Below are positions 13,620 through 44,268 of a stretch of 44,321 nucleotides of DNA, piece by piece. The translations under genes were made by a program, and so were the position numbers. Numbering within the stretch: the stretch's first letter is position 1; each line of letters starts with the position of its first letter. This DNA comes from Chloroflexota bacterium (GTDB lineage Bacteria > Chloroflexota > Anaerolineae > Anaerolineales > Villigracilaceae): the NCBI GenBank assembly GCA_016191955.1, contig JACPVC010000026.1, forward strand, positions 1 through 44,321, read 5' to 3'. The notes below the pieces were generated by a model. The model was not told the origin of the DNA, ran no database searches, and worked only from the letters and a program-made list of their open reading frames with translations.

Positions 13620-14921
13620 CGAATTGCATCGCGGAAAATGTTACTTTGGGAAGTATCGTTGCATCAGGAAAAATGTTACTTTCCGATAGGCGAAAAAGCC
13701 AGTCGGAGGAGCCACATGATGAGCCTGAAAAGCAAGCGCGAGTTGTTAGAAGTGGTGCAACCCAGATACCTGAAAGCCAATAAACTTGAAAAGCAGAAAA
13801 TGCTGGACGAGTTTACATCTGCCACTGGATACCATCGGAAACATGCGATCCGAGTACTAAAAAACCAAGTGCAAGTTCAAAACCACCTTAAAGGGAAAAC
13901 CAAAACCTATAAAACCGTCTATGGCGGTGAAGTTGTACAGGCGCTTGAACAAATCTGGGAAATCTGTGGACAGATCTGTTCCAAGCGACTGCAACCATTC
14001 TTGCCCGAAGCGATTAAAGTATTGGAACGTTGTAAAGAAATTGAACTTTCCAAAGACACAAAAGAACTGCTCCTGAAAATCAGCTCCGCCAGCATAGATC
14101 GTTGCTTGCTTCCCGTCCGAATCAAATCACCGCATGGCTTGAGCACCACCAAGTCTGGTAGCCTGCTCAAAAACCTCATTCCAGTCCGCACCTTTACCGA
14201 ATGGGATCAAGAACGACCCGGTTTCATGGAAATTGACCTCGTCGCGCACTGTGGGAACACCACCGAAGGGCAATACCTGAATACGTTGACCTGTACTGAC
14301 ATTTGCACAGGCTGGACGGATGTGACTGCCTTGCCACACCGCTCGCAAGAGGCAGTTTCTGAAGCGATCCACCTCATGCGCCAAAGACTGCCTTTTCCAT
14401 TGCTTGGCATTGATTCGGATAACGGCAGTGAATTTATCAACGATCTGTTATACCGCTACTGTCTGGATGAGAAAATCACTTTCACCCGTTCTCGTCCTTA
14501 CCAGAAAAACGATCAGGCGCATGTAGAACAGAAGAACTGGTCTGTGGTTCGTCATACTGTGGGTTATGACCGCTGGGAAACAGAGCAAGAGTTTGCCATT
14601 CTACAAAATATCCATGCTGACTTACGGCTTTACATCAACTTCTTTCAGCCGTCTTTCAAGCTGATTGCCAAACAACGCATTGGCAACAAGACCATCAAAC
14701 GGTATGATACTGCCAGGACACCTTACCAGCGTGTTCTCGAACGCCAAAACATTTCTCTTGAAGCCAAAGCGAGGCTCATGAACTTGTACCTCCAACTCAA
14801 TCCTGCCGAACTTCGTCGCTCGATTGACCACAAAACCGCCAAGCTTTGGAAAATTTCTCGGTAACATTTTGCCTTGATGCAACCTGTCCCTCAAAGTAAC
14901 ATTTTATCTTGATGCATTACG
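13620..14921 (+). mobile_element. 1302-bp insertion sequence with DDE transposase
   Basis: The ends are related inverted repeats (CGAATTGCATC on the left and CGTAATGCATC read inward from the right, 9 of 11 matching), continuing to a shared AAAATGTTACTTTG. The flanking 5-bp direct repeat ATGCG (13615-13619 and 14922-14926) is the target duplication. Each end carries a second, inner copy of the same terminal motif (13660-13684 and 14861-14882), probably transposase binding sites. It contains a single transposase gene and interrupts a TIR-TPR gene. The family is not certain; it carries a retroviral-integrase-type DDE core. Confidence 0.9.
13716..14864 (+). CDS. IS transposase, integrase-core DDE type
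   Basis: A 382-residue transposase. The start at ATG 13716 follows GGAGGA at 13705-13710; the frame is open further upstream but that part is the IS end. The N-terminal region (about 1-60) looks like a helix-turn-helix (LDEFTSATGYHRKHAIRVL). The rve-like catalytic core spans about 165-330, with D174 in MEIDLVAHCG, D235 in GIDSDNGSEF and E271 in KNDQAHVEQKN, giving the DDE triad. A C-terminal tail with SIDHKTAKLWK follows. All three catalytic residues are intact, so the element may still be active. Family placement (IS481-like or unclassified) needs a search. Confidence 0.9.
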   Translation: MMSLKSKRELLEVVQPRYLKANKLEKQKMLDEFTSATGYHRKHAIRVLKNQVQVQNHLKGKTKTYKTVYGGEVVQALEQIWEICGQICSKRLQPFLPEAIKVLERCKEIELSKDTKELLLKISSASIDRCLLPVRIKSPHGLSTTKSGSLLKNLIPVRTFTEWDQERPGFMEIDLVAHCGNTTEGQYLNTLTCTDICTGWTDVTALPHRSQEAVSEAIHLMRQRLPFPLLGIDSDNGSEFINDLLYRYCLDEKITFTRSRPYQKNDQAHVEQKNWSVVRHTVGYDRWETEQEFAILQNIHADLRLYINFFQPSFKLIAKQRIGNKTIKRYDTARTPYQRVLERQNISLEAKARLMNLYLQLNPAELRRSIDHKTAKLWKISR

Positions 14922-15693
14922 ATGCGTCAACATTCGGCTTGAGTTTAATGGACATTGAAGCATCAGCAACAGATTGCTGATATAACTGTTTCATTCGATA
15001 TGCATCCGCTCGAATTTGGTAGGCTAAAAAAGATTTCGGGTTTAATTCGATTGCCCGTATGGAATCCAAAATCGCAAGGCTGTCATGGTTCTGATGATAA
15101 TATGCCTGCGCTCTGGTGATATAAAGTTCTGCATTGATGGGGTCGACTGTCAATAATTGATCACATAATCGTATTACCGTAGACCATTGCGATTTATTCT
15201 TCGCGTGCGACAATTCTGCTAATAAGTCGGTCTCACCGATATCTCCTTTTTCAAGCGGTATTGGTTTAAGTTGATTCGCGCGCGTAGTCAGCGCTGATTT
15301 TAATTTTTCGTATCCTTTTGATTTGGTCAAATCTACCCATTGCCAGCGGATAAGCCTTTCGGGAACCTTACACTCCTCTAGTTTAGCTGGAATGAGAAAT
15401 ATGGTTCCATCCGGTTTTTCATCGGCAGCATCCAAAGCAATCTTTATTTCCTTCTGCCCATATCCTTCCTTCGTGGTGAATTTTCTGGAAAGACAAATTA
15501 TTACGATATCTGAATTTCGTACAGCCTTGGGTATCTCAGTCTGCCATTCTTGCCCTGGTAATAAATTTTCTTCATCTAGCCATGTGTCAAATCCGTCCGC
15601 AACCAGCTTGTTATATAGGGAGCGTACTTTGCTTTTATCTTCCGAGACATGGCAAAGAAAAACTCGAAGGGATGTAGTGAATTGATTTTTCAT
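14922..15693 (-). pseudogene. 5' part of TIR-TPR gene, truncated by an IS
   Basis: Encodes an N-terminal TIR domain (about residues 8-130) and the first TPR repeats. The TIR motifs are LRVFLCHVSEDK, WLDEENLLPGQEW and YGQKEIKIAL, with E82 at the position of the catalytic glutamate of NAD-cleaving TIR domains. The IS end adds a stop shortly after PNVDA, so the present frame yields 258 residues instead of the restored 372. Bacterial TIR proteins often act in anti-phage or stress responses by consuming NAD, but no partner gene is next to it here. The truncated product keeps the whole TIR domain and could still be made. Confidence 0.85.
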
Positions 15694-32975: not shown

Positions 32976-33311
32976 TCAGTCGATTTTTTTCCAGATATCC
33001 GAAGGCGGGCGCGAGAGCGGGCGGGTGAGAGCGGAGAGGCGCGCTTGATAATAAGGCTCCGCTTCGGTGGCGAAACGAGAGAGGTCGAACAAGTGACGCT
33101 TTATCAGCAGGTCTGCGATGCGCTTCACTTCGTCTCTGGTGAATTCGGGAAGCTTTTCATGGAATTCAGTCAGGCTAAAACGTCCCAGCCGGATGACGAA
33201 ATTCACAGCGGAGCGCATAGGTTCGGAGAATAACACGACATCCGACGGACGGACATCTTCTTGTCGTTCCTCCAATTCCTTGATCGCAGTTTCAAAGAGC
33301 GGGTTGCTCAT
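32976..33311 (-). CDS. Small putative winged-helix partner of the MinD-like ATPase (copy A)
   Basis: 111 residues, unknown family. Alpha-helical, with a central stretch EPMRSAVNFVIRLGRFSLTEFHEKL, then FTRDEVKRIADLLIKRHLF, whose spacing suggests a winged helix, and a C terminus ending SDIWKKID. The same order of elements is seen in the protein at 42299-42679, which also follows a MinD-like ATPase: LF near the start, the basic central helix, the acidic helix pair, and xxIWxxLD at the end. I infer they are distant homologues. It starts 26 bp after the ATPase gene with AAAGGGA as ribosome site. Confidence 0.7.
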   Translation of the reverse strand: MSNPLFETAIKELEERQEDVRPSDVVLFSEPMRSAVNFVIRLGRFSLTEFHEKLPEFTRDEVKRIADLLIKRHLFDLSRFATEAEPYYQARLSALTRPLSRPPSDIWKKID

Positions 33312-33337: not shown

Positions 33338-34093
33338 CTAGGCTTTGAGTTGATCCACCAGGCTGCGCAAACCTTTGGTCACCACATTCTCGGGATAGTG
33401 AACCGTGAAGAGACCGGAACTTGCGAGCATCATCATTTCATCGGAGTGGGGGAGAATGGCTCCTACTTTGGCTTCATAGGTCTGCTCCACGCGGGCGCGG
33501 ACTTCTTCAAAATCCAGGTTGTTGGGAGCTTTGTTGACGAGGATGAAAAGCTTCGGCACATCCAATTTCTTTGCAACATCCACGGTCACTGCCGTGCCCT
33601 GATAATCCTGCTGGTCGGGGCGCATGATGATGACCAAAGCGTTAGATATCGCAATGGAAAGCAGGGTCTCTTCATTAAGACCAGGGTGGGTGTCGATCAA
33701 AAGGTAGTCCAGCTTCAGCCTTTCGATCACGTCGCGGAAACCGTCGTTCAGCAAGCCCACATCGTAACCTTCGCGCAGAATGCGGGCGATCTCGCCGGCT
33801 TTAATGCTGGAGGGGATCAGGAATATCTGACCCTTAACTTCTGCTCCGATATGCCCGGTCACATCCTGGGCGGCTTGTTCAATGGTGCACTTACCCCACA
33901 GGTAGTCGTTGAGAGAGTGTTCTATATCCGCTTCATCTAAATTGAAGAGAACATGAATACCGGGGGAGGCAATGTCAGTATCTACTACACCCACACGCGC
34001 TCCATCCATTGCAAGAAGCGCCGCAATATTGGCAGTGGTGTTCGATTTACCTGTCCCGCCGCGGAACGAATGAACTGAAATGATTTTGGACAT
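33338..34093 (-). CDS. MinD/ParA-like ATPase (copy A)
   Basis: 251 residues. The deviant Walker A loop reads HSFRGGTGKSNTTANIA. The signature lysine of the usual KGGxGKT/S is arginine here (R12 by alignment with copy B), while the catalytic-site lysine (GKS) is kept. Walker A' is VVDTDIASPGIH, and the Walker B-like segment is DYLLIDTHPGLNEETLL. LILVNK near the C terminus is the base-binding strand region. It is clearly paralogous to 41280-42062 along its whole length. It lacks an obvious membrane-targeting tail, and no minC or minE is nearby, so a role other than septum placement is likely. CGGAG precedes the ATG. Confidence 0.9.
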   Translation of the reverse strand: MSKIISVHSFRGGTGKSNTTANIAALLAMDGARVGVVDTDIASPGIHVLFNLDEADIEHSLNDYLWGKCTIEQAAQDVTGHIGAEVKGQIFLIPSSIKAGEIARILREGYDVGLLNDGFRDVIERLKLDYLLIDTHPGLNEETLLSIAISNALVIIMRPDQQDYQGTAVTVDVAKKLDVPKLFILVNKAPNNLDFEEVRARVEQTYEAKVGAILPHSDEMMMLASSGLFTVHYPENVVTKGLRSLVDQLKA

Positions 34094-34307: not shown

Positions 34308-34460
34308 CTGGGAATCGTTTTCTGAGAACTTATGATCGACTACTTGGTACTCACTGAAAAAATAATTCATAATAGCGGTATCAACCGCTGCACGAACGAT
34401 TGAAACCGTCATGGCGGCATTTTCCAAAAAACAGACTCAAACGACCCATTTTCGCGATTT

Positions 34461-35027
34461 ATGACAACAAACTATATGCAAAACACCTTGATACCCCTAC
34501 AGGACACCAGCGACGAAATTCTCATCCAGAAATATATGGATGGGAGCAAGGAAGCGTTCGATGTGCTCTACCACCGTCACCTTCCCAAAGTTTACAAGAG
34601 GGTAAGGTACGTGGTCCCCGAAAACGATGTGGAGGATGTAACGCAGGAGATTTTCATCGCCGCGCTCAAGTCCCTGTCCTCGTTTCGTGGGGATGCCAAG
34701 TTCGGCACCTGGCTGCGCACGTTAACCAATCATAAAGTGGCTGAGTTCTATCGAAGGCGTACCCGCAAACAGGAACCACGGCTTGCTCCGCTTTCCGATG
34801 CGGTCGCCCAGGTTACAGGCAGTACCTCTCAATCGCTGGAGGAACGCATCTTCCTTCAACGGGCACTGCAGAACCTGCCCGAAAACTACCGGGAGATCAT
34901 CCTGCTCCGTTTTGCAGAAGATATGCAGTTCAATGAGATCGCCGAATTGACCAACCAAAACCTTGAGGCAACCAAATCGCTATTCCGCCGAGCCGTTACT
35001 GCGCTTCGCAATCATTTGGAAAAATAA
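34461..35027 (+). CDS. ECF-type RNA polymerase sigma factor
   Basis: 188 residues with region 2 (DEILIQKYMDGSKEAFDVLYHRHLPKVY...VEDVTQEIFIAALKSLSSFRGDAKFGTWLRTLTNHKVAEFYRRR) and region 4 (LQRALQNLPENYREIILLRFAEDMQFNEIAELTNQNLEATKSLFRRAVTALR). The pattern is the standard sigma-70 family ECF type. No ribosome site is evident before either ATG 34461 or ATG 34476. The next gene, 3 bp downstream, encodes a membrane protein with a cytoplasmic head, the usual place of an anti-sigma factor. Downstream lipoproteins are candidate members of its regulon. Confidence 0.93.
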   Translation: MTTNYMQNTLIPLQDTSDEILIQKYMDGSKEAFDVLYHRHLPKVYKRVRYVVPENDVEDVTQEIFIAALKSLSSFRGDAKFGTWLRTLTNHKVAEFYRRRTRKQEPRLAPLSDAVAQVTGSTSQSLEERIFLQRALQNLPENYREIILLRFAEDMQFNEIAELTNQNLEATKSLFRRAVTALRNHLEK

Positions 35028-35029
35028 TC

Positions 35030-35497
35030 ATGTATCAAAAAGATGAAACTACCGAAAAAGATAACGAACTCGCGGATTTTGCCGACCGCATGATTAAAGG
35101 AAGGATCGCCCCCCCCGCCTCTGCCTCAGACGAGGAGCTGTTCGGCCTCGAAAAAACGCTTCTCCGTTTGAACGATACCTTCCCTCCAGTGACATTGGAT
35201 GATGCCAAATCCAAGCAGATGCTGGTGCGGCTCAAAGCTCGAATGCGGCGGGAGGAGGAAGAGCAGGCAGCCAAACCGTCCTTTTGGAAGCGGCTCTTTG
35301 ACCTTCAGTCCAACCCGCAGGTCGGTTTGCTCATTGCAGCGGCGGCGGTTGTGCTACTGGTCATTATCAACCTGCCCTCTGTGGACCCTTCCGGCAACTC
35401 GGTTACCGGAACAGCATTCCCCGGAACCAACCTCTTTACTGCCCTGGGGCTGATCGGCGTGCTGCTTATTTTCTATTGGATATCTCGCCGTAAATAG
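35030..35497 (+). CDS. Putative membrane-bound anti-sigma factor
   Basis: 155 residues. The N-terminal half (about 1-95) is charged and likely cytoplasmic, ending in a coiled-coil-like basic and acidic stretch (VRLKARMRREEEEQ). Two membrane helices follow at about 98-115 and 133-151, joined by a short outside loop (PSVDPSGNSVTGTAFPGTN). It has no HxxxCxxC zinc motif, so it is not a classical ZAS protein. The anti-sigma role is inferred from its place 3 bp after the sigma gene and from its topology. A PrsW-family protease, known elsewhere to cut anti-sigma factors, is encoded at 39421-40530. Confidence 0.65.
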   Translation: MYQKDETTEKDNELADFADRMIKGRIAPPASASDEELFGLEKTLLRLNDTFPPVTLDDAKSKQMLVRLKARMRREEEEQAAKPSFWKRLFDLQSNPQVGLLIAAAAVVLLVIINLPSVDPSGNSVTGTAFPGTNLFTALGLIGVLLIFYWISRRK

Positions 35498-35570
35498 AAC
35501 GATTGGCGGTGTGAATCAAGAACGTGTACGTTGTTTATTGTCAAAGGATCAATTTAAAAAGGAGAGAGAA

Positions 35571-37202
35571 ATGAATAGTAAACCTAATCAAAAATGGGGA
35601 AAGTTACTTTTCATGCTGATCGCAGTGCTGACCGTATCTTCGCTGCTGCTTTCTGCCTGCGCCCCTTCTCAAGGATTGGAAGGTGGCGGTGGTGGCGGTG
35701 GTGGAAATGGCGGCGACAACGGCGGTGGCAATGATAATCAGGGTGGCGGCAATGACAACCAGGGTGGCGGCAATGATAATCAGGGCGGTGGTAATGACAA
35801 TCAGGGCAACAGCGGAAATTCTGGTAACGCTGGCGGCGGTGGCCAAAACCAGGGCGGCTCCCCGAGCGACCCCGGCACTGGCGACCCGAGCGTCCAGAAC
35901 CCTGACGGTGTAGTCGTGCGCGGCTCGAAACAGGATGGTTCCGATCCCTGTCTAGACAAAGGCGAACTGCCTTGCGGTCAAGGTGACCATGGCAAGGGCA
36001 ACCCTGTAAACGGAAGCCTGCACGCCAACTGTCGCGCAGCCCAGGGTGAAGTGGATCCGAACTGCACTTCCAAGGATATTGAATGTGACCCCGCAGTTGA
36101 GGATTGTTCACCTTGTGATCCCGCAACCGAAACTTGTGGCGAGGTCAAGATCTGCGATCCTGCCACAGACCCAACCTGTGCGCCGACTCCTCCGATCACT
36201 GAGGTGAAAGCCAAGGAACCCCCCGTTGCAGGCTCCTGCCCGAACTGGATCCTGTTCCACTCCTTCCGCACGGGTAACCTGGATGTCTTCCGCCTGGATG
36301 GTATCGAAGGTATCGAAGGATTTGAAGCCATCAACCTGAGCAACGGTGGCACCCAGGACTCTCGCCCGAGCCGTTCTGATAATGATGAATGGGTCGTCTT
36401 CCAGAGTGACCGTGATGGCAACGTCGAGTTGTACTTGACGGACAGCATGGGCAAGTCGCAGACCCGCCTGACGAACACCAGCGCCAACAACATCAACGCC
36501 ATGTTCAGCCCGAACAACCAAAGCGTGATCTACCAGAGTGACCGCAACGGTAACTGGGACATCTTCCTCCTGAACAAGGACACTGGCGAAGAACTGCAAT
36601 TGACCTCCAATGCCGGTGACGATGTTAATCCCTTCTACTCGCCGGATGCGAACTGGATCACTTTCCAGTCCAACCGCACAGGCTCATGGAATGTGTTCGT
36701 CTTCGACATCTCAACCGGTACGGAATACCAGGTGACCTCGTTCTCGACCGACGTGCTCTTCCCGAGTTGGTCACCGAACGGCAAGCAGTTGGCGTTCTTC
36801 ATCAATACGACCGGCACTTGGGACCTGTATGTGTCTGATATTCAGGGCAAGACGTTCAGACAGGTTTCCATCGGTGGTGACGCGCAGAACGCGAGTTGGT
36901 CACCGGAAGGGAACCGCCTCGCCTACCAGGTGACGACTGGTGACAATACCGACGTCTTCACCTTCGACCTGACGACGAACACCGAGTACCAGTTGACGAC
37001 CTTCGGCGGCGTAGACTCTGCCCCGACCTGGAACTGTGGTGGTACGGATGTGTCCTTCACCTCGAACCGCGAAGGCAACCCGAACATCTACTCGTCCTGG
37101 TGGCAGGGTGGTGGCGACATCTACGGCATCACTTTGCACCCCTCGACCGACAAGTGGTCGCAGTGGACACCCTCCAAGGAACCCGGTTCTCGCGGGTACT
37201 AA
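35571..37202 (+). CDS. Secreted lipoprotein with PD40 beta-propeller repeats (copy 1)
   Basis: 543 residues from ATG 35571, chosen because AAAGGAGAGAG lies just upstream. The frame is open further 5' but has no signal. The lipoprotein signal ends LLLSAC with C30. A Gly/Asn-rich linker has four GGGNDNQ units, then a cysteine-rich region (CDPAVEDC, CDPATETC, CDPATDPTC). The C-terminal about 320 residues form TolB-like PD40 blades with repeating words such as VVFQSDRDGNVELYL, VIYQSDRNGNWDIFLL, ITFQSNRTGSWNVFVF and LAFFINTTGTWDLYV. It is likely anchored outside the cell, with the propeller displayed for binding. It is nearly identical in this part to copy 2 downstream. Confidence 0.88.
   Translation: MNSKPNQKWGKLLFMLIAVLTVSSLLLSACAPSQGLEGGGGGGGGNGGDNGGGNDNQGGGNDNQGGGNDNQGGGNDNQGNSGNSGNAGGGGQNQGGSPSDPGTGDPSVQNPDGVVVRGSKQDGSDPCLDKGELPCGQGDHGKGNPVNGSLHANCRAAQGEVDPNCTSKDIECDPAVEDCSPCDPATETCGEVKICDPATDPTCAPTPPITEVKAKEPPVAGSCPNWILFHSFRTGNLDVFRLDGIEGIEGFEAINLSNGGTQDSRPSRSDNDEWVVFQSDRDGNVELYLTDSMGKSQTRLTNTSANNINAMFSPNNQSVIYQSDRNGNWDIFLLNKDTGEELQLTSNAGDDVNPFYSPDANWITFQSNRTGSWNVFVFDISTGTEYQVTSFSTDVLFPSWSPNGKQLAFFINTTGTWDLYVSDIQGKTFRQVSIGGDAQNASWSPEGNRLAYQVTTGDNTDVFTFDLTTNTEYQLTTFGGVDSAPTWNCGGTDVSFTSNREGNPNIYSSWWQGGGDIYGITLHPSTDKWSQWTPSKEPGSRGY
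35730..35804 (+). repeat. 21-bp tandem coding repeat in lipoprotein copy 1
   Basis: Four AATGAYAAYCAGGG-type units begin at 35730, 35751, 35772 and 35793, each coding NDNQGGG. Synonymous differences between units show that they have drifted while keeping the peptide. Confidence 0.85.
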
Positions 37203-37211
37203 TCTAAAACG

Positions 37212-37256
37212 AATCCCATGCGGCATTGGAACACCTTATGTCGCATGGGATTTTTT
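37212..37256 (+). terminator. Terminator after lipoprotein copy 1
   Basis: Arms AATCCCATGCG and CGCATGGGATT (11 bp) followed by a run of T. It separates the two lipoprotein genes into different transcripts. Confidence 0.85.
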
Positions 37257-37442
37257 GCAACCCGAAACTCAACAAATCAACGACAAAGTTTACAGGTAGA
37301 TCGCGGAAAGTGCTTTGAGATAATGCCTGACAAATCCCTTTATTGTGTATAACGCATGCGGAAGCAAGTTGCCAAAGGCGTGTGCAAGCATATTGATCGT
37401 TACTTTAAAGAAATAAGGATGTCTGTTCGAAAGGAGAAAAAA

Positions 37443-39308
37443 ATGAGTAATTTATCCAAGCAAAAACAACAGGGAAGACGGCTATTTGCCTTGATCGCAG
37501 TGTTGACCATACTATCATTGCTGTTCTCTGCTTGTGTCCCTTCGCAAGGACTGGAAGGCGGCGCTGGCGGTAATGGGAATGGCGGCGGTAATGGCAACGG
37601 CGGCGGCAACGATAATCAGGGTGGTGGTGGTGGCAACGATAATCAGGGTGGCGGTGGTGGCAACGATAATCAGGGTGGCGGTGGCGGCAACGATAATCAG
37701 GGTGGTGGTGGCGGCAACGATAACCAGGGCGGTGGTGGCGGCACCAACGACAATCAGGGCGGCGGTGGTAACTCCGATAACAGTGGGAACTCTGGAAATT
37801 CCGGCAACAGCGGTAACTCTGGTGGTGGCGGTGGTCAAGACCAGGGTGGCTCTCCCAGCGACCCCGGCACTGGCGACCCGAGTGTCCAGAACCCCGATGG
37901 CGTAGTTGTCCGCGGCTCCAAGCAAGATAGTTCCGATCCCTGTCTGGATAAAGGCGAACTGCCTTGCGGTCAAGGTGACCATGGCAAGGGCAACCCTGTA
38001 AACGGAAGTCTGCACGCTAACTGCCGTGCTGCACAAGGTGAAGTGGATCCGAACTGCACGCCCAAGGATGTTGTCTGTAACCCTGCCAAGGAAGATTGCG
38101 GCAAGAAATGTGATCCTGCCACGGAGGATTGCGGTGATACTACCTGTGATCCTGCCACAGAGGATTGTGGTTGTGACCCTGCCACGGAGGATTGCGGTGA
38201 TGTCTGTGATCCTGCCACAGAGGATTGTGGTTGTGACCCTGCAACCGAAGACTGCGGACCCGTTACCTGCGTTGGAGCAGAATGCGCACCGACTCCTCCG
38301 ATCACCGAGGTGAAAGCCAAGGAACCCCCCGTTGCAGGTTCCTGCCCGAACTGGATCCTGTTCCACTCTTTCCGCACGGGTAACCTGGATGTCTTCCGCC
38401 TGGATGGTATCGAAGGTATCGAAGGATTTGAAGCCATCAACCTGAGCAACGGTGGCACCCAGGACTCTCGCCCGAGCCGTTCTGATAATGATGAATGGGT
38501 CGTCTTCCAAAGCGACCGTGATGGCAACGTCGAGTTGTACCTGACAGATAGCATGGGCAAATCCCAGACCCGTCTGACGAACACCAGCGCGAACAACATC
38601 AACGCCATGTTCAGCCCGGACAACCAGAGCGTGATCTACCAGAGTGACCGAAACGGTAACTGGGATATCTTCCTCCTGAACAAAGATACGGGCGAAGAAC
38701 TGCAATTGACCTCCAATGCTGGTGACGATGTTAATCCCTTCTACTCGCCGGATGCGAACTGGATCACTTTCCAGTCCAACCGCAACGGCTCATGGAATGT
38801 GTTCATCTTCGACATCTCGACCGGTACGGAATACCAGGTGACCTCGTTCTCGACCGACGTGCTCTTCCCGAGCTGGTCGCCGAACGGCAAGCAGTTGGCG
38901 TTCTTCATCAATACGACCGGCACTTGGGACCTGTATGTGTCTGACATTCAAGGCAAGAGCTTCAGACAGGTTTCCATCGGCGGTGACGCGCAGAACGCGA
39001 CTTGGTCACCGGAAGGGAACCGCCTCGCCTACCAGGTGACGACTGGTGACAACACCGACGTCTTCACCTTCGACCTGACCTCGAATCAGGAGTACCAGTT
39101 GACGACCTTCGGCGGTGTGGACTCTGCTCCGACCTGGAACTGTGGTGGTACGGATGTGTCCTTCACCTCGAACCGCGAAGGCAACCCGAACATCTACTCG
39201 ACCTGGTGGCAGGGTGGTGGTGACATCTATGGCATCACTTTGCACCCCTCGACCGACAAGTGGTCACAGTGGTCGCCCTCCAAGGAACCTGGTTCCCGCG
39301 GGTATTAA
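37443..39308 (+). CDS. Secreted lipoprotein with PD40 beta-propeller repeats (copy 2)
   Basis: 621 residues from ATG 37443, preceded by GAAAGGAG. The signal peptide ends LLFSAC with C31. The linker has six NDNQ units spaced by about five glycines, then an NSGNSG stretch. A cysteine region follows with CNPAKEDCG and five CDPATEDCG units, longer than in copy 1. The propeller part, from TEVKAKEPPVAGSCPNW to EPGSRGY, differs from copy 1 at only a handful of residues, and the DNA is also almost identical. This indicates recent duplication or gene conversion limited to the propeller. Possible roles are surface binding or signal sensing; no enzyme motif is visible. Confidence 0.88.
   Translation: MSNLSKQKQQGRRLFALIAVLTILSLLFSACVPSQGLEGGAGGNGNGGGNGNGGGNDNQGGGGGNDNQGGGGGNDNQGGGGGNDNQGGGGGNDNQGGGGGTNDNQGGGGNSDNSGNSGNSGNSGNSGGGGGQDQGGSPSDPGTGDPSVQNPDGVVVRGSKQDSSDPCLDKGELPCGQGDHGKGNPVNGSLHANCRAAQGEVDPNCTPKDVVCNPAKEDCGKKCDPATEDCGDTTCDPATEDCGCDPATEDCGDVCDPATEDCGCDPATEDCGPVTCVGAECAPTPPITEVKAKEPPVAGSCPNWILFHSFRTGNLDVFRLDGIEGIEGFEAINLSNGGTQDSRPSRSDNDEWVVFQSDRDGNVELYLTDSMGKSQTRLTNTSANNINAMFSPDNQSVIYQSDRNGNWDIFLLNKDTGEELQLTSNAGDDVNPFYSPDANWITFQSNRNGSWNVFIFDISTGTEYQVTSFSTDVLFPSWSPNGKQLAFFINTTGTWDLYVSDIQGKSFRQVSIGGDAQNATWSPEGNRLAYQVTTGDNTDVFTFDLTSNQEYQLTTFGGVDSAPTWNCGGTDVSFTSNREGNPNIYSTWWQGGGDIYGITLHPSTDKWSQWSPSKEPGSRGY
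37608..37757 (+). repeat. 27-bp tandem coding repeat in lipoprotein copy 2
   Basis: Six units coding NDNQ plus about five glycines. The last unit has an extra threonine codon. The period is 27 bp instead of 21 bp in copy 1. Confidence 0.85.
38076..38258 (+). repeat. Tandem cysteine-pair coding repeat in lipoprotein copy 2
   Basis: One CNPAKEDCG and five CDPATEDCG units, spaced by 0-3 residues. Each has a Cys-x6-Cys pair. Copy 1 has only three looser units at the equivalent place. Confidence 0.85.
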
Positions 39309-39346: not shown

Positions 39347-39380
39347 AAAACGCGGCTGCAAAACATTGCAGCCGCGTTTT
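39347..39380. terminator. Terminator after lipoprotein copy 2
   Basis: Arms AAAACGCGGCTGCAA and complement (15 bp) with loop AACA. The T-rich end of the right arm acts as the U-run. Confidence 0.85.
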
Positions 39381-39420: not shown

Positions 39421-40530
39421 ATGATATTGGTGGTTTCGATTGTCATTGCTTTGACCGTGCCTGTGATTTTTCTTTTCGCGCTGCGGTCCTTTGACTTGCA
39501 CAAGACGGTAAAATTTGGGAGAAACATCGTCACGCTTGTTTGTGGGGTGATCGCCTACCTACTGGCGGCACAGATCAACCCGGCAATTGCTGATGCGGGT
39601 TGGCTCGAATGGAAGCAGGTGGTCCGCATTGTAGCGCCCATTGTTGAAGAAATTCTCAAGGCGGCGATCCTGATCTATTTGGTCAACCGTGCTGATTTCA
39701 ATTATGTGGTCGATGGCGCCTTATATGGCTTTGGGGCGGGCATTGGTTTTGCGATCATCGAGAATGTGGAATATGTGCAGGGGAATATCGAATTTGCGCT
39801 GGTGGTCGCGCTGGCGCGCGTATTCTCCACCAACCTGATGCATGCCACCAGCAGCGGATTGATCGGCACGTCATTGGCATATCATCGCGGAGAGACCAAT
39901 AAAAAACGGGGCCTTCTGGTGGTTCTTGGCGGGTACATCCTTGCCATGTTCTTTCATGGAGTATTCAATACAATGGTCAATGCGGGAACCTTCCTTGCCT
40001 TCGCCATTATTTACGGAGTGATTGGCGCTGCGCTGATCTGGCTTGTCATTCGGAATGGCATGGCTGCTCAAAGAGGTTGGGTGGGCGAAAAACTTGGAAT
40101 GGAGGACCGCGTTACCAAGGAAGAGACCCGCGCTGTGACCAGTATCGATAAGATGGTGGAGACTTTGATCGAGCCTTTCCAGGAACGTTTCGGAGATGAT
40201 AAGGTTCCGCTGGTAAAGGAATTGATGTACAAGCAGGCAGAGATGGGCATCAAGCGCAAATTGTTAGACGCCACACCCAGCCCTACCAAACGCAAAGAAG
40301 TCGAAGAGATCATTCAGGGTCTCTATAAGGAAATGGAAATCCTGCGCAAGCAGATCGGGATGTACCCGATGATGTTCGTACGCGAGGTGTACCTCGGGCA
40401 GGACAGCCGTGTTTGGGACAGGCTCCAGACCCGTATCGCCGAAACAAGCACAGGTCAAAAAGGAGGCGGGCTGTGGGATATGGCAACCAACAAGATCAAG
40501 CAGTCCAAATCTCAGGAGGAGAATCAGTGA
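39421..40530 (+). CDS. PrsW-family intramembrane metalloprotease (M82)
   Basis: 369 residues. The first about 220 hold seven to eight membrane helices with the M82 motifs: EExxK (E76, E77, K80 in PIVEEILKA), F110xxxE114 in GFAIIENVEY, H141 in NLMHATSSG and H179 in FFHGVFN. PrsW in Bacillus makes the first cut in the anti-sigma factor RsiW, and the substrate here is unknown. The remaining about 140 residues form a soluble, charged cytoplasmic domain not needed in classical PrsW. Its stop overlaps the start of the cyclic-nucleotide-binding gene, so the two are coupled. A separate anti-sigma candidate lies about 4 kb upstream. Confidence 0.88.
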   Translation: MILVVSIVIALTVPVIFLFALRSFDLHKTVKFGRNIVTLVCGVIAYLLAAQINPAIADAGWLEWKQVVRIVAPIVEEILKAAILIYLVNRADFNYVVDGALYGFGAGIGFAIIENVEYVQGNIEFALVVALARVFSTNLMHATSSGLIGTSLAYHRGETNKKRGLLVVLGGYILAMFFHGVFNTMVNAGTFLAFAIIYGVIGAALIWLVIRNGMAAQRGWVGEKLGMEDRVTKEETRAVTSIDKMVETLIEPFQERFGDDKVPLVKELMYKQAEMGIKRKLLDATPSPTKRKEVEEIIQGLYKEMEILRKQIGMYPMMFVREVYLGQDSRVWDRLQTRIAETSTGQKGGGLWDMATNKIKQSKSQEENQ

Positions 40531-41261
40531 CCGGCGATATCCTCAACAAGATTCGAGAAACGGAATTTTTCAAGGAACTGTCGGATGATGCTTCGGCTGC
40601 TGTGGCGGCAAAGGCGTCGATTCGTAAATTTGCAGTGGGAGATGCCCTCATGCGCAAGGGCGACCCGGCTGATTCTTTTTTTGTGATCCTCGATGGGCAT
40701 CTTAAGATCGTAACAACGGATGCCAAGGGCGACGAGATCATCATCAATAAAGTGGGACCCGGCGAAAGCATCGGCGAGCTTGCGCTTGTGGATGAACGCC
40801 CGCGCTCGGCGGGGGTGGTAGCGCTGGATGCAGTGGAAGCGTTGGAGTTAACGAAGGAAGCTTTTTTCGATCTTCTCAATCACCGCTTGGACGTTTCGCT
40901 TGGCATCTTGCGCGGTTTCTCGAACCGCCTGAGATTCTCAACGACCTACATCGAGAAAGTGATCGACTGGTCGCAGAAGACTGCGGAAGGGGATTATTCG
41001 TTCATGGAGCAGACCCAGCCCATTAATAACCGCACCGGGAACGACGACGATAAAGCGGCGCAACTGCTCTCTGCATTCTATTCGATGGTACGAAAAGTGA
41101 AGGCGCGTGAAGAGACCTTGAAGCAGGAATTGGAGCGACTGACGTTCGAGATCGATCAGGAACGCCGCAAGAAGGAATTCGACGAGATCACCGGTTCGGA
41201 GTTCTACGCCAAGTTGAAGGAACAGGCGAAATCGCTGCGTCAGAAACGCGCAGACCAGTAA
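40527..41261 (+). CDS. Cyclic-nucleotide-binding (CRP N-domain-like) protein with coiled-coil tail
   Basis: 244 residues from GTG 40527, which follows AGGAGGA and overlaps the upstream stop (GTGA). Residues about 8-130 form a cNMP-binding beta-roll: VGDALMRKGDPADSFFVILDGHLKI, then the phosphate cassette GESIGELALVDERPRSAGV with G83-E84-L85 and the conserved arginine (R93). There is no helix-turn-helix DNA-binding domain. Instead a long charged coiled coil runs to the end (REETLKQELERL...EITGSEFYAKLKEQAKSLR). It thus looks like a cAMP or cGMP sensor acting on a partner protein, plausibly the neighbouring ATPase. Confidence 0.88.
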   Translation: MTGDILNKIRETEFFKELSDDASAAVAAKASIRKFAVGDALMRKGDPADSFFVILDGHLKIVTTDAKGDEIIINKVGPGESIGELALVDERPRSAGVVALDAVEALELTKEAFFDLLNHRLDVSLGILRGFSNRLRFSTTYIEKVIDWSQKTAEGDYSFMEQTQPINNRTGNDDDKAAQLLSAFYSMVRKVKAREETLKQELERLTFEIDQERRKKEFDEITGSEFYAKLKEQAKSLRQKRADQ

Positions 41262-41279
41262 AAGCAACACGGAGGAATT

Positions 41280-42062
41280 ATGGCAGGCAAGATCGTATCC
41301 ATTCATTCATTTCGGGGCGGGACGGGTAAATCGAACACAACGGCAAACCTTGCTTCGCAGGTTGCCATGACCGGCAAGCGTGTCGGCGTTGTGGATACGG
41401 ATATTCAGTCGCCGGGCATCCATGTTCTCTTTGGTTTGGATGAACATAAAATGGGAAAGACCTTGAACGATTATTTGCATGGCAAAGCCAGCATTCGTGA
41501 GGTTGGGTACTCGGTGGGGGATAACAAGGTGGAAGGCGAAGGGCGCTCCCAGTTGGCTGGCAAGAATCTTTTCCTGTTCCCGTCCAGCATCAAGGGCAAG
41601 GAGATCAGCCAGATCCTTCATGAAGGCGTTGATTTCAACAAGTTGAATGAGGGTCTGCAGACCGCCATTACCGAATTCAATCTCGATTATCTTTTCATCG
41701 ATACGCATCCTGGCTTGAACGAAGAGACCCTGCTCTCCATCGCTACGTCGGATATTCTTATCATCATCCTGCGCCCCGATAATCAAGACCTTCAAGGAAC
41801 AGCGGTGACTGTGGATGTTGCCCGCAGCCTGGATGTTCCAAACCTCTTTTTGATGGTGAATAAAGCCCTGCCCAAATACGATTTTGCTGAGATCAAAAAA
41901 GACATCGAAGAGCAGTTCCAGGCGATTGTGACCAGCGTGCTGCCGCTCTCGTTTGACATGGCGGAAAATGCCAGCAGGGACCTGTTTTCCCTGCGCTACC
42001 CTGACCATGAATGGTCGAAGGCATTGAAGAATATCGTTCCGCACATCCTGAACGCGAAATAG
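41280..42062 (+). CDS. MinD/ParA-like ATPase (copy B)
   Basis: 260 residues, paralogous to 33338-34093. Deviant Walker A is HSFRGGTGKSNTTANLA, with R12 where KGG-type ATPases have the signature lysine, and K17 intact. Walker A' is VVDTDIQSPGIHVLFGLDEHKMG, and the hydrolysis-site strand is DYLFIDTHPGLNEETLLS. A base-contact motif LMVNKALPKYDF follows. Compared with copy A it has a 10-residue insert (DNKVEGEGRSQ). ACGGAGGAATT precedes the ATG. It lies 18 bp after the cyclic-nucleotide sensor gene and 12 bp before the zinc-finger gene, so it is probably co-transcribed. Confidence 0.9.
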   Translation: MAGKIVSIHSFRGGTGKSNTTANLASQVAMTGKRVGVVDTDIQSPGIHVLFGLDEHKMGKTLNDYLHGKASIREVGYSVGDNKVEGEGRSQLAGKNLFLFPSSIKGKEISQILHEGVDFNKLNEGLQTAITEFNLDYLFIDTHPGLNEETLLSIATSDILIIILRPDNQDLQGTAVTVDVARSLDVPNLFLMVNKALPKYDFAEIKKDIEEQFQAIVTSVLPLSFDMAENASRDLFSLRYPDHEWSKALKNIVPHILNAK

Positions 42063-42074
42063 GAGCACATCATT

Positions 42075-42287
42075 ATGAAATGCTGGCATTGTGAAGAAGA
42101 AGCCCGCGCATCCTGCGCGTTTTGTGGCCGTTTTGTATGCAAGGACCATGCTGCGACCATGTCCACATTCATTACGATGTTTGTCGGTGCGAACAATACC
42201 CCAAAAGGGTTGGCAGTTTCCAATGTGATCTGGTGCGGCGAGTGCGAACCCCAGCCCGAGCCGATCAGCATGCCTGAGTTGTACTAA
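42075..42287 (+). CDS. Small zinc-finger protein
   Basis: 70 residues with paired metal-ligand motifs: CWHC near the start, CAFCGRFVCKDH in the first third, and CGEC near the end. The C-x2-C ... C-x2-C-x4-C-x2-H pattern suggests a B-box or AN1-like zinc fold. An AGGAG site lies before the ATG. It is in line with the MinD-like ATPase and the small partner gene (11-bp gap) and may act as an adaptor. The function is unknown. Confidence 0.75.
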   Translation: MKCWHCEEEARASCAFCGRFVCKDHAATMSTFITMFVGANNTPKGLAVSNVIWCGECEPQPEPISMPELY

Positions 42288-42298
42288 GTGAGGTAGAC

Positions 42299-42679
42299 AT
42301 GCCCGGACTCTTTGATCGCCTGGATAAAGAAATAAAGGATAGTCAAAAGGATGGCGGCATCTCGCCGCTCGACATTGCCAAGCTGCCGCCATCCCTGAGA
42401 AAGATCATGCGCGTGATGCTGCGTGAATTGCAGTTGACTTATCCGCGCATATGTGAGGTGATGGACGCCATGCCCGAACAGGATCGCCTCACACACGCCG
42501 AGTTGGATGAAGCTCTTGCAGCCCTGTCTGAGCAATTCTGGCTGATCCGCATCGGCGAAAAGGAAAAGGCGATCTACAAAGTCAATCTGCGCCGCAGGGC
42601 TGGCAGCACCCTGATGGCGGGCATCTGGTCTTCGTTGGATGAAAAACTAAAGGGCAACCCGCCTAGTAAGCCAAAATAA
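42299..42679 (+). CDS. Small putative winged-helix partner of the MinD-like ATPase (copy B)
   Basis: 126 residues of unknown family. It has the same order of features as 32976-33311: GLFDRLDKEI at the start, a basic helix PPSLRKIMRVMLRELQLTYPRICEVM, then LTHAELDEALAALSEQFWLIRIG, a beta-like segment KAIYKVNLRRRAG, and IWSSLDEKL near the end. The middle looks like a winged helix, so DNA or protein binding is possible. It follows the ATPase and zinc-finger genes and is the last gene of that + strand unit. Confidence 0.7.
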   Translation: MPGLFDRLDKEIKDSQKDGGISPLDIAKLPPSLRKIMRVMLRELQLTYPRICEVMDAMPEQDRLTHAELDEALAALSEQFWLIRIGEKEKAIYKVNLRRRAGSTLMAGIWSSLDEKLKGNPPSKPK

Positions 42680-42680
42680 A

Positions 42681-42704
42681 AAAGCGCCGCATTCGCGGCG
42701 CTTT
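42681..42704. terminator. Bidirectional terminator
   Basis: Arms AAAGCGCCGC and complement around ATTC. The - strand copy is followed by TTTTTTATTTTGG, so it serves the cyclase gene best and probably also ends the + strand unit. Confidence 0.85.
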
Positions 42705-42708
42705 CTAC

Positions 42709-44268
42709 TTAAATTTCCTTCGGCTTTTTCTTGACCAGTTCATACAAGCTCATGGGCTTGCTCTTGCCCTTCAGTGGAATCTCGCCAAGAGATATGCATT
42801 CATATTTTATTTCTACCGCCTGCCTCACCGACTCTGAAATCACAATCTGGTTCTTCTGCGCGCGGTTCATCAAACGCGCCGCCGTGTTGACTGTGTCGCC
42901 CAGCACGTTGAATTCGCGCCGTCCGCGCGGGTCGCCGACTTCTGCCACGAATGCTGGTCCCATGTTGATGCCGATCTGACAAAAAACCTCCGGCTTGATG
43001 CCGCCGATGGTGGGCGCTTTGACATTGATGCCTTCCACAACCTCACGGATGGCGACTGCGGCAGAGGCAGCCCGCATTTCGTTGTTGGTGTGCGCGTTTG
43101 GCACGCCGAAGTAGATCACGATATCTGAACCAGACAGATGATAGGTCACCTTTTTGAGAACGCCGCCGCGCGCTTCCACGGCTGCGTTGATGAGCGAGAA
43201 TGCCTTGGAAAAACTCGCCGCCAATTTACGCTCCTCGCCCGGCAAAACACGGTCTGCAGATTCGGGCAAGCCGACAAAGTTAACGAACATAATGGTTGGG
43301 TTCGGAAAATCCGGTGGGATACGACGGTCTGCCGCGCTCTCTACCAGCATGGAAAGCACCGGGTCGGGGATATAACTGGCGAGCGGCTCGATGGAATTCA
43401 ACAGCTCGATGATGTTATTCAAAACTTCCTTCTTGTCCTTCATGTCGAAGAGCACACTGCTTGCCATGCGGCGCCCAACCGGGGTGATCTCATAATCGCC
43501 GAGGGTTTCAGCGGTCAGGTCGTCGATCACAAGCTGATAATCGGGGTTGCCCTCTTCAAAGTGGAAGTCATTCTTTGCCTGCTCGTATGCGGTCTGCGAG
43601 ACGTTCACCCGCTCATTGAACCCATTGCTTTCGGTCAACTTTGCCTTTTGCACATCCTTGCCGAGCAGCACATGCTCCATGCGGCGCGGTGTGCCGATCT
43701 CTGCGGTAAGGAACTTGCCGGTGTGAATGCCGATACGCATTTTCAGGTTGACAATTCCCGAAGGCGTTTGGATCTCTGCGAAATCCTTCATCGCACGCTG
43801 CATGCGCAGTCCCGCGCGGATGGCGCGCCTGGCATCGTCTGCCTTGTCCTTTTTCTTTGAGAAAACCACCAGCATTGCATCGCCGGTGAACTCCACCAAC
43901 TCGCCGCCCGCTTTGCTGATGATCGAGATCATCGTGGAAAAATATTTTGTCAGTTCCTTCAGCAGGTTCTCGGCGCCTTCGCGTCCCTTCGAGGCGTTGG
44001 CTTCCATGAGTTTGGTGAACCCTGCCAGGTCGGTGAACATCATCGTGCCATACTGCCACTCGGTCTTTACATCTCCGGGTTTGAGTTTGGTAATATCGAT
44101 TTGCCGCGAAGTATAATCGTGTAAAATTCGCTGGAGAGTCCGCAAATGATTGTGGACCTGGATCATCACCTCGATGGACGGATTTCCCCACATCGAGACG
44201 TACATTTCCGATGGTAACAAATATCGCAAACGGTTTTCAATTGTGGTAAGTGGTGACTCAGGAAGCAT
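42709..44268 (-). CDS. Tandem-domain class III adenylate/guanylate cyclase
   Basis: 519 residues. Two class III cyclase domains are visible, C1 about residues 72-235 and C2 about 323-500, joined by a linker with helical segments. C1 has both metal aspartates (D80 in MFTDLAGFT, D130 in FTGDAMLVVF) but not the catalytic N/R pair. C2 has N461 and R465 in LGDTVNTAARL but lacks both metal aspartates (N330 in MFVNFVG, S381 in LSGSDIVIYFG). The layout matches the pseudo-heterodimer of soluble adenylyl cyclase, with one active site at the C1/C2 face. No transmembrane segment is seen. The choice between cAMP and cGMP cannot be told from the residues visible. It is convergent to the cyclic-nucleotide sensor unit. 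Confidence 0.9.
   Translation of the reverse strand: MLPESPLTTIENRLRYLLPSEMYVSMWGNPSIEVMIQVHNHLRTLQRILHDYTSRQIDITKLKPGDVKTEWQYGTMMFTDLAGFTKLMEANASKGREGAENLLKELTKYFSTMISIISKAGGELVEFTGDAMLVVFSKKKDKADDARRAIRAGLRMQRAMKDFAEIQTPSGIVNLKMRIGIHTGKFLTAEIGTPRRMEHVLLGKDVQKAKLTESNGFNERVNVSQTAYEQAKNDFHFEEGNPDYQLVIDDLTAETLGDYEITPVGRRMASSVLFDMKDKKEVLNNIIELLNSIEPLASYIPDPVLSMLVESAADRRIPPDFPNPTIMFVNFVGLPESADRVLPGEERKLAASFSKAFSLINAAVEARGGVLKKVTYHLSGSDIVIYFGVPNAHTNNEMRAASAAVAIREVVEGINVKAPTIGGIKPEVFCQIGINMGPAFVAEVGDPRGRREFNVLGDTVNTAARLMNRAQKNQIVISESVRQAVEIKYECISLGEIPLKGKSKPMSLYELVKKKPKEI

Follow-up and report, generated by a model that had tools for sequence, protein, structure and literature searches.

We analyzed a stretch of 44,321 nucleotides (the window) from a Chloroflexota bacterium of the family Villigracilaceae (assembly GCA_016191955.1, contig JACPVC010000026.1) and found a cluster that joins an intramembrane protease, a cyclic-nucleotide sensor, a MinD-like ATPase and a nucleotidyl cyclase to an extracytoplasmic function (ECF) sigma factor. 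Five tightly packed genes on the + strand encode a PrsW-family intramembrane protease with a C-terminal cytosolic region (39421–40530; PF13367, E 5.6e-26), a sensor consisting of a cyclic nucleoside monophosphate (cNMP)-binding domain and a helical tail (40527–41261; PF00027, E 9.1e-24), a MinD/ParA-like ATPase with the motif FRGGTGKSN (41280–42062; families AAA_31, ParA and CbiA), a 70-amino-acid (aa) Cys/His zinc-ribbon-like protein (ZF; 42075–42287; no Pfam or NCBIfam model over cut-off) and a small winged-helix protein with a C-terminal IWxxLD motif (42299–42679; no Pfam match over cut-off). The genes are spaced by –4, 18, 12 and 11 bases, and the GTG start of the sensor (40527) overlaps the PrsW stop. 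A tandem class III nucleotidyl cyclase (42709–44268; PF00211, E 6.9e-39), whose domains form a single composite active site, lies on the – strand, with a hairpin at 42679–42706 in the gap between it and the converging small-protein gene. A preliminary description of this DNA had proposed these six genes as a signalling module; open reading frames and Pfam confirmed all of them at these positions, including the convergence of the cyclase.

The boundary drawn around the six genes proved too narrow, as an ECF sigma factor (34461–35027, + strand; Sigma70_r2, E 7.7e-15; Sigma70_r4_2, E 7.7e-11) and an anti-sigma-like membrane protein (35030–35497, + strand; recognized from an alignment of 33 sequences and from hydropathy) belong to the cluster too. 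An ECF-type promoter-like element, CRACCC-N-TTT-N13-CNACNAA (34442–34471, + strand), stands immediately 5' of the sigma gene, the true start of which may be the ATG at 34476. Two PD40/TolB-like beta-propeller lipoproteins are encoded on the + strand between the anti-sigma-like protein and PrsW, the first at 35511–37202 (start probably 35571; lipobox LLLSAC by eye) and the second at 37356–39308 (PF07676, E 1.8e-31). On the other side of the sigma gene, a further MinD-like ATPase (33338–34093, – strand; 56% identity with the other) lies beside ligA and adjoins a small paralogue of the winged-helix protein family (32976–33311, – strand).

Within the genus, the order PrsW–sensor–MinD–ZF–small protein was kept in 23 of the 23 sensor loci that reach all five genes, our own included. 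The preliminary description had named co-occurrence in related genomes as a check on the module, and the genes do co-occur: across 61 related genomes, PrsW and the sensor (E < 1e-30) were both present in an identical set of 27 and both missing from an identical set of 34. The sigma factor (E < 1e-50) was found in 26 of the 27, as well as in two further genomes (G011 and G043), and its presence or absence matched that of PrsW in 58 of the 61 genomes; in the one genome of the 27 lacking a sigma match (G024), the contig stops inside PrsW (L026). MinD proper (E < 1e-100) was likewise found in 26 of the 27, the contig of the remaining genome (G003) stopping after the sensor (L045). As the genomes share ancestry, these counts do not represent independent events. 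The five genes and the cyclase were rejected as the whole unit, since the sigma/anti-sigma pair tracks them.

The cluster is gained and lost as one block of eight genes. Most relatives bearing the block have it flanked by the second MinD and the cyclase, while in G007 (L125, L210), G384 (L173, L263), L174 and L191 the cyclase directly adjoins the second MinD and the eight-gene block is absent between them. Some variation was seen within and beside the block: L051 and L053 have extra genes between the small protein and the cyclase, and the first lipoprotein is not obligatory, no propeller gene being present between anti-sigma and PrsW in L115 and L134. In all genus loci long enough to show it, the locus holds its place near ligA.

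For the more distant relatives, named genomes were scanned with an alignment of diverse MinD proteins, which yielded at least 80 loci picked by MinD similarity, 39 from Chloroflexota and 41 from Cyanobacteria by their record titles; some genomes supplied more than one locus, and the set overlaps with the other genome set. Because contig ends cut many loci, gene presences are lower limits. A ZF profile (hidden Markov model) matched in 66 of 400 Chloroflexota genomes and a MinD profile in 49 of 400. When 30 ZF loci were fetched, MinD lay within 1.5 kb in 18 (all 17 at E < 1e-25, plus L080); ZF alone was rejected as a marker of the module, as the other 12 loci (L073–L079, L081–L085) have no MinD within that distance.

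Among the 39 Chloroflexota MinD loci listed, 25 have a ZF gene. These 25 contain the small protein in every case, PrsW in 22, the cyclase in 20, a full sensor in 17 and the sigma/anti-sigma pair in 12. The ZF and PrsW genes share a strand in 22 of 22 loci, and the presence of PrsW near MinD in 22 of 25 compares with a chance expectation of about 2% (within 10 kb, given four PrsW genes in 4.34 Mb). The gene order varies. In L138, L141 and L142, a sensor-tail protein is followed by MinD–ZF–small protein–PrsW–cyclase–sensor, and in L211, and in L121 on the opposite strand, the order is cyclase–sensor–MinD–MinD–sigma–anti-sigma–PrsW–MinD–ZF–small protein. Neither ZF nor PrsW was found in any of the 41 cyanobacterial MinD loci. 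In three of these (L147, L151 and L182), a closely related tandem cyclase (E 6e-175 to 6e-207) sits near a MinD of the same family, and the MinD–cyclase link thus crosses phyla.

The sensor was described earlier as a cNMP-binding protein with no DNA-binding domain, and we found no helix-turn-helix (HTH) family match for it in Pfam. The residues expected to bind the ligand are conserved, supporting its prediction as a cyclic-nucleotide binder: the phosphate-binding cassette of the window protein has E84 and R93, and of 49 distinct full sensors, 48 retain the cassette Glu, 48 retain the Arg and 47 have a Ser following the Arg. The tail is helical, carries an EIT-x-[ST]-x-[FY] motif and was judged by eye to form a coiled coil. 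Thr139 of the window protein, Thr in 44 of the 49 sensors, aligns with Ser128 of CRP, assuming a gapless C-helix (from the end points of the match to 1i5z) and the chain numbering by which we took Ser128 to fall on T139. At this position, the portion of the Pycsar literature available to us associates Ser or Thr with cyclic AMP (cAMP), Asn with cyclic UMP and Glu with cyclic GMP (cGMP) (PMC11224242), and Thr139 makes the sensor lean weakly to cAMP. A sequence search of the Protein Data Bank (PDB) with the C-helix stretch of the sensor gave no meaningful match.

Natural gene fusions argue for the predicted functional tie of the sensor to the protease, the ATPase and the cyclase. PrsW and the sensor form a single frame in UBA2317 (L207, L044; 609 aa), in L214 and in UW1SPNA009 (L197, L134; 604 aa), and in the other order in L204, a locus of Aggregatilineales (600 aa). 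A sensor–MinD fusion was seen at one locus (L146, 506 aa) and a sensor–cyclase fusion in one genome (G036, L054; 780 aa). Both halves were confirmed by Pfam in L044, L134, L204, L146 and L054, the fusions in L207, L197 and L214 being taken from reading frames. Fusion of PrsW and the sensor probably arose two or more times: both genus-level fusions may have a common origin, and that of L204 is separate from them on account of its taxonomy. With partners at PrsW, MinD and the cyclase, the sensor looks like a hub.

The cyclase has two PF00211 stretches and is therefore a tandem enzyme. The active site of class III cyclases contains two metal-binding Asp residues and a transition-state Asn and Arg. 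In domain 1 the two metal Asp residues are retained and the transition-state pair is lost, and the reverse is found in domain 2, leaving one composite site. Base selection in this class involves a Lys paired with Asp or Thr in adenylate cyclases, or a Glu paired with Cys or Gly in guanylate cyclases. The composite site has His at the Lys position and Asn at the Asp/Thr position in 25 of the 25 aligned rows that cover domain 2, the cyanobacterial ones included; distant loci such as L137 also have larger cyclases, with AAA/TPR regions, that lie outside this count. With His and Asn as the base-selecting residues, we assign no product to the enzyme. The reading as a plain adenylate or guanylate cyclase was rejected, since neither standard pair is present at the composite site, and so was cGMP production on the strength of a Glu in domain 1, as this Glu stands at the pseudo-site without its partners. 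Of the second messengers suggested earlier, cAMP or cGMP, neither can be read from the cyclase, and the lean to cAMP comes from the sensor Thr.

A cyclase encoded next to a membrane protein with a cNMP domain could also be a Pycsar-like antiphage system, in which a cNMP-binding membrane effector, switched on by the cyclase, harms the cell. The cyclase and a cNMP protein are indeed encoded together, a feature of Pycsar that is not specific to it; the PADLOC models for PycC match the cyclase (best E 4.6e-29) and the PycTIR model matches the sensor (E 7.9e-14), and clade A PycC likewise has two cyclase domains in the excerpt of the source we drew on (PMC11224242). We take the PADLOC matches to be general to cyclases and cNMP domains, and we rejected assignment to a known phage defence because the matches are only to such models. 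The fixed place near ligA in the genus loci, the gain and loss of the locus as a block, and the presence of a sigma/anti-sigma pair with a conserved promoter-like element all speak against a defence role, and we regard it as highly improbable.

In the protease, the motifs E76E77xxK80, F110xxxE114, H141 and H179xxxN183 are invariant in 13 aligned sequences and correspond to the PrsW motifs EExxK, FxxxE, H and HxxxD/N listed in the section consulted of PMC12943098. The window protein scored 39.5 bits against an NCBIfam PrsW equivalog cut-off of 225, and by its sequence we class it as a member of the family, not the curated equivalog. The genome also has two M50 (PF02163) site-2 protease genes, neither of them linked to the cluster. 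Elsewhere in the same genome (G000:C194:26434-31928), a further PrsW and a further cyclase are encoded about 5 kb apart.

The anti-sigma-like protein shows conserved cytoplasmic helices in the alignment of 33 sequences. By hydropathy the window protein has two membrane segments, as do 27 of the 33; the remaining six have three or four. Before the second segment, a GTA (window residues 127–129) is kept in 22 of the 33 nonredundant sequences, and a looser G[TSA][AS], placed –60 to –20 from the C-terminus, in 30 of the 33; the GTA loop is a candidate cleavage site. Zinc-containing anti-sigma (ZAS) factors have an HxxxCxxC motif, and this was not found in the window protein, which has neither Cys nor His.

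A model of the promoter-like element, built from 31 unique sites, matched before the sigma gene in 25 of the 26 loci scanned and in none of the sequences from one simple shuffle per locus; the training and test sets overlap, two of the scanned loci (L116 and L201) are one contig, and L119 fell under the threshold. A looser expression matched in 37 of 40 loci, at least one of which (L049) probably by chance. Weaker sites of the model were found upstream of two PD40 genes in L053 and upstream of a DAO-type oxidoreductase gene (tested in L040 and L050; by position in L043). In the own genome, the sigma site is the only exact match, and the sigma factor is probably autoregulated.

ZF is the most conserved member of the cluster, 90–99% identical in 22 same-genus loci; in the 12 loci compared, third codon positions are 44–73% identical, and the protein itself is therefore strongly constrained. 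In L131 (6775–10179), a ZF homologue adjoins a protein of 1036 aa that matches an M50 protease and contains two cNMP-domain stretches, a further case of a cNMP domain joined to a membrane protease. MinD/ParA proteins have a deviant Walker A with an N-terminal signature Lys. The window MinD shares with them the P-loop families AAA_31, ParA and CbiA, and differs in that its FRGGTGKS has an Arg in place of the signature Lys, an Arg invariant in 11 diverse members aligned. The IWxxLD at the C-terminus of the small protein is kept in an alignment of 33 sequences and reads IWKKID in the window paralogue. An AlphaFold model of the small protein (predicted local distance difference test, pLDDT, 71) had winged-helix proteins as its best Foldseek matches, of the ArsR, BlaI/MecI and MarR types together with some centromere-binding proteins (AspA, the pNOB8 protein and TubR), the best at E 0.01 and none at or below 0.001; a PDB sequence search with the small protein gave no meaningful match.

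These folds raise the alternative of a spatial system resembling ParA and its centromere-binding partners, in which MinD and the winged-helix protein would position something in the cell, the cyclic nucleotide would set the ATPase cycle and PrsW would be one cargo or target. The MinD/small-protein pair occurs twice in the window, and the cyanobacterial L147, L151 and L182 have MinD near the cyclase with no PrsW, both of which would suit such a system. The matches to AspA, the pNOB8 protein and TubR are, however, weak and only some among many of the ArsR, MarR and BlaI types, and MinD forms one protein with the sensor in L146 and accompanies PrsW in Chloroflexota; we consider spatial positioning distinctly improbable. 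In the cyanobacterial L158 (7824–10762), three consecutive genes encode a CHASE2 protein, an HTH-like small protein of 98 aa and MinD, an arrangement that suggests a general sensor–adaptor–ATPase unit.

The cluster is real and conserved, and it probably forms one signalling system. We propose that it is a cyclic-nucleotide-gated switch for the regulated intramembrane proteolysis of an anti-sigma factor, a mechanism that is plausible and to which we give a probability of about one half. The cyclase would make a cyclic nucleotide and the cytosolic sensor would bind it; by way of its helical tail and of the MinD-like ATPase, together with the zinc and winged-helix partners, the sensor would then alter the activity of PrsW. 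PrsW would cut the extracytoplasmic loop of the neighbouring anti-sigma, with GTA as the candidate site, and one of the unlinked M50 site-2 proteases would complete the cleavage. The freed ECF sigma would transcribe its own operon and, in some relatives, also the neighbouring propeller-lipoprotein or oxidoreductase genes. We infer ligand binding, gating, cleavage, the order of events, the sign of regulation and the places of MinD, ZF and the winged-helix protein in this scheme. The preliminary description had pointed to envelope signalling in general as the output; because the ECF sigma/anti-sigma pair adjoins, PrsW-type sigma release is the most likely one, and PrsW standing by such a pair while linked or fused to a cNMP sensor is most simply read as cyclic-nucleotide control of sigma release.

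Several observations weigh against this proposal. Sigma is present in only 12 of the 25 ZF-bearing loci, and the anti-sigma-like protein matches no Pfam family over cut-off. In the own genome, near matches to the promoter were not in excess of control (loose, 10 vs. 21; stricter, one mismatch, 5 vs. 6), and a wide sigma regulon was rejected on this basis. Although L030 (G015) keeps the gene order, PrsW and the sensor are each split there into two frames. In G002 and G006, the run is PrsW–MinD–ZF–small protein, with a diverged sensor (31–34%) on another contig, and G448 and G049 likewise have no sensor between PrsW and MinD. Of the cassette residues, the Glu is replaced by Asp in the fused L204 sensor and the Arg is missing in L254. 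Fusion partners can be mere neighbours, and a structure model of the PrsW–sensor fusion (mean pLDDT 54) was too poor to be used. A strong hairpin with a 15-pair stem (39347–39380; assigned by the scan to the – strand) parts the lipoprotein genes from PrsW; it is a possible terminator, and the cluster may form two transcripts. Lastly, PrsW was not found in three of the 25 ZF-bearing loci (L143, L190 and L196), where a HEAT-repeat protein with a terminal cNMP domain is present, in L143 some 3 kb before MinD, and PrsW is thus not obligatory.

The sigma counts, the position of the hairpin and the three loci with another cNMP protein in place of a PrsW match are what would be expected if two units simply lay side by side, the one of sigma, anti-sigma and lipoproteins and the other of PrsW, sensor, MinD, ZF and winged-helix protein, with PrsW cutting some other membrane protein, for example in envelope maintenance. 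Against this stand the agreement of sigma and PrsW presence in 58 of the 61 genomes, the location of sigma–anti-sigma immediately 5' of PrsW in L115, L121, L134, L186 and L211, and the order sigma–anti-sigma–propeller–sensor–MinD–ZF–small protein–PrsW in L119 and L135, and we regard two separate units as rather unlikely. The HEAT-repeat proteins of L190 (11611–15192) and L196 (10867–14706) are large and have the cNMP domain at the C-terminus; the latter has a TLC transporter match barely over the cut-off.

The gated-proteolysis proposal has precedents in its parts. To our knowledge, PrsW of Bacillus subtilis has no cyclic-nucleotide sensor, MinD-like ATPase, zinc protein or cyclase attached to it. 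The sigmaW–RsiW–PrsW–RasP pathway of that species has in common with the window the same four PrsW motifs, an ECF sigma, a membrane anti-sigma and M50 site-2 proteases in the genome. Its PrsW acts as the site-1 protease for the anti-sigma RsiW, according to the portions available of PMC10202637 and PMC3498285, and is described in the available text of PMC12943098 as an independent protease, whereas the PrsW of the window is linked to sensor, MinD, ZF and cyclase genes.

The preliminary description knew of no system with this composition, and no description of the module was found in the literature, judged on titles and the opening of abstracts; the novelty does not extend to the joining of PrsW and cNMP domains, as fusions of PrsW to cNMP, PilZ, FHA or Zn-ribbon domains were noted in 2012 in the part consulted of PMC3482391, where they were proposed to cleave proteins in concert with the signal that they sense. 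That part describes no sigma/anti-sigma target, MinD, winged-helix partner, cyclase or genome survey for them. Similarly, a PrsW–PilZ protein of Leptospira, LIC_20173, is predicted to place PrsW under second-messenger control (PMC12943098; 2026), but in the text accessible it is a single protein with a noncanonical PilZ, the messenger is cyclic di-GMP, and no comparable operon is described. Pycsar shares with the window a class III cyclase and a cNMP-binding membrane effector, but no protease or sigma switch is described in the extract of PMC11224242, and the window cluster has a fixed chromosomal place. What is new here is the conserved module itself, with a candidate substrate and sigma factor, the MinD–ZF–winged-helix set, the cyclase and the test of co-inheritance.

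The system might, as a tentative proposition, be the first in which a cyclic mononucleotide, whose base may be unusual, leads by way of a MinD-type ATPase to the intramembrane proteolysis of an anti-sigma factor, with a cytosolic trigger and an interchangeable output protein (PrsW, HEAT/transporter-like or possibly M50). We know of no established trigger of PrsW proteases, and the cluster brings together a candidate trigger, its receptor, an ATPase as relay and a candidate substrate, along with natural fusions fit for expression and assay. If the proposal is true, cyclic-nucleotide signalling would be joined to regulated intramembrane proteolysis and ECF sigma factors, and the protease would be triggered from the cytosol, not only from outside. 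A MinD family of Chloroflexota and Cyanobacteria would also gain a function, as would a nearly invariant zinc-finger-like protein of 70 residues.

Some further features of the window were noted by eye. The tandem PD40 propeller lipoproteins (35511–39308) are nearly identical, and the Gly/Asn-rich repeats that follow their lipoboxes differ in length. An integrase-like transposase (13638–14864) lies downstream of a division gene cluster, and a protein resembling a TIR domain followed by repeats (14917–15693) is encoded just past the division/cell-wall genes.

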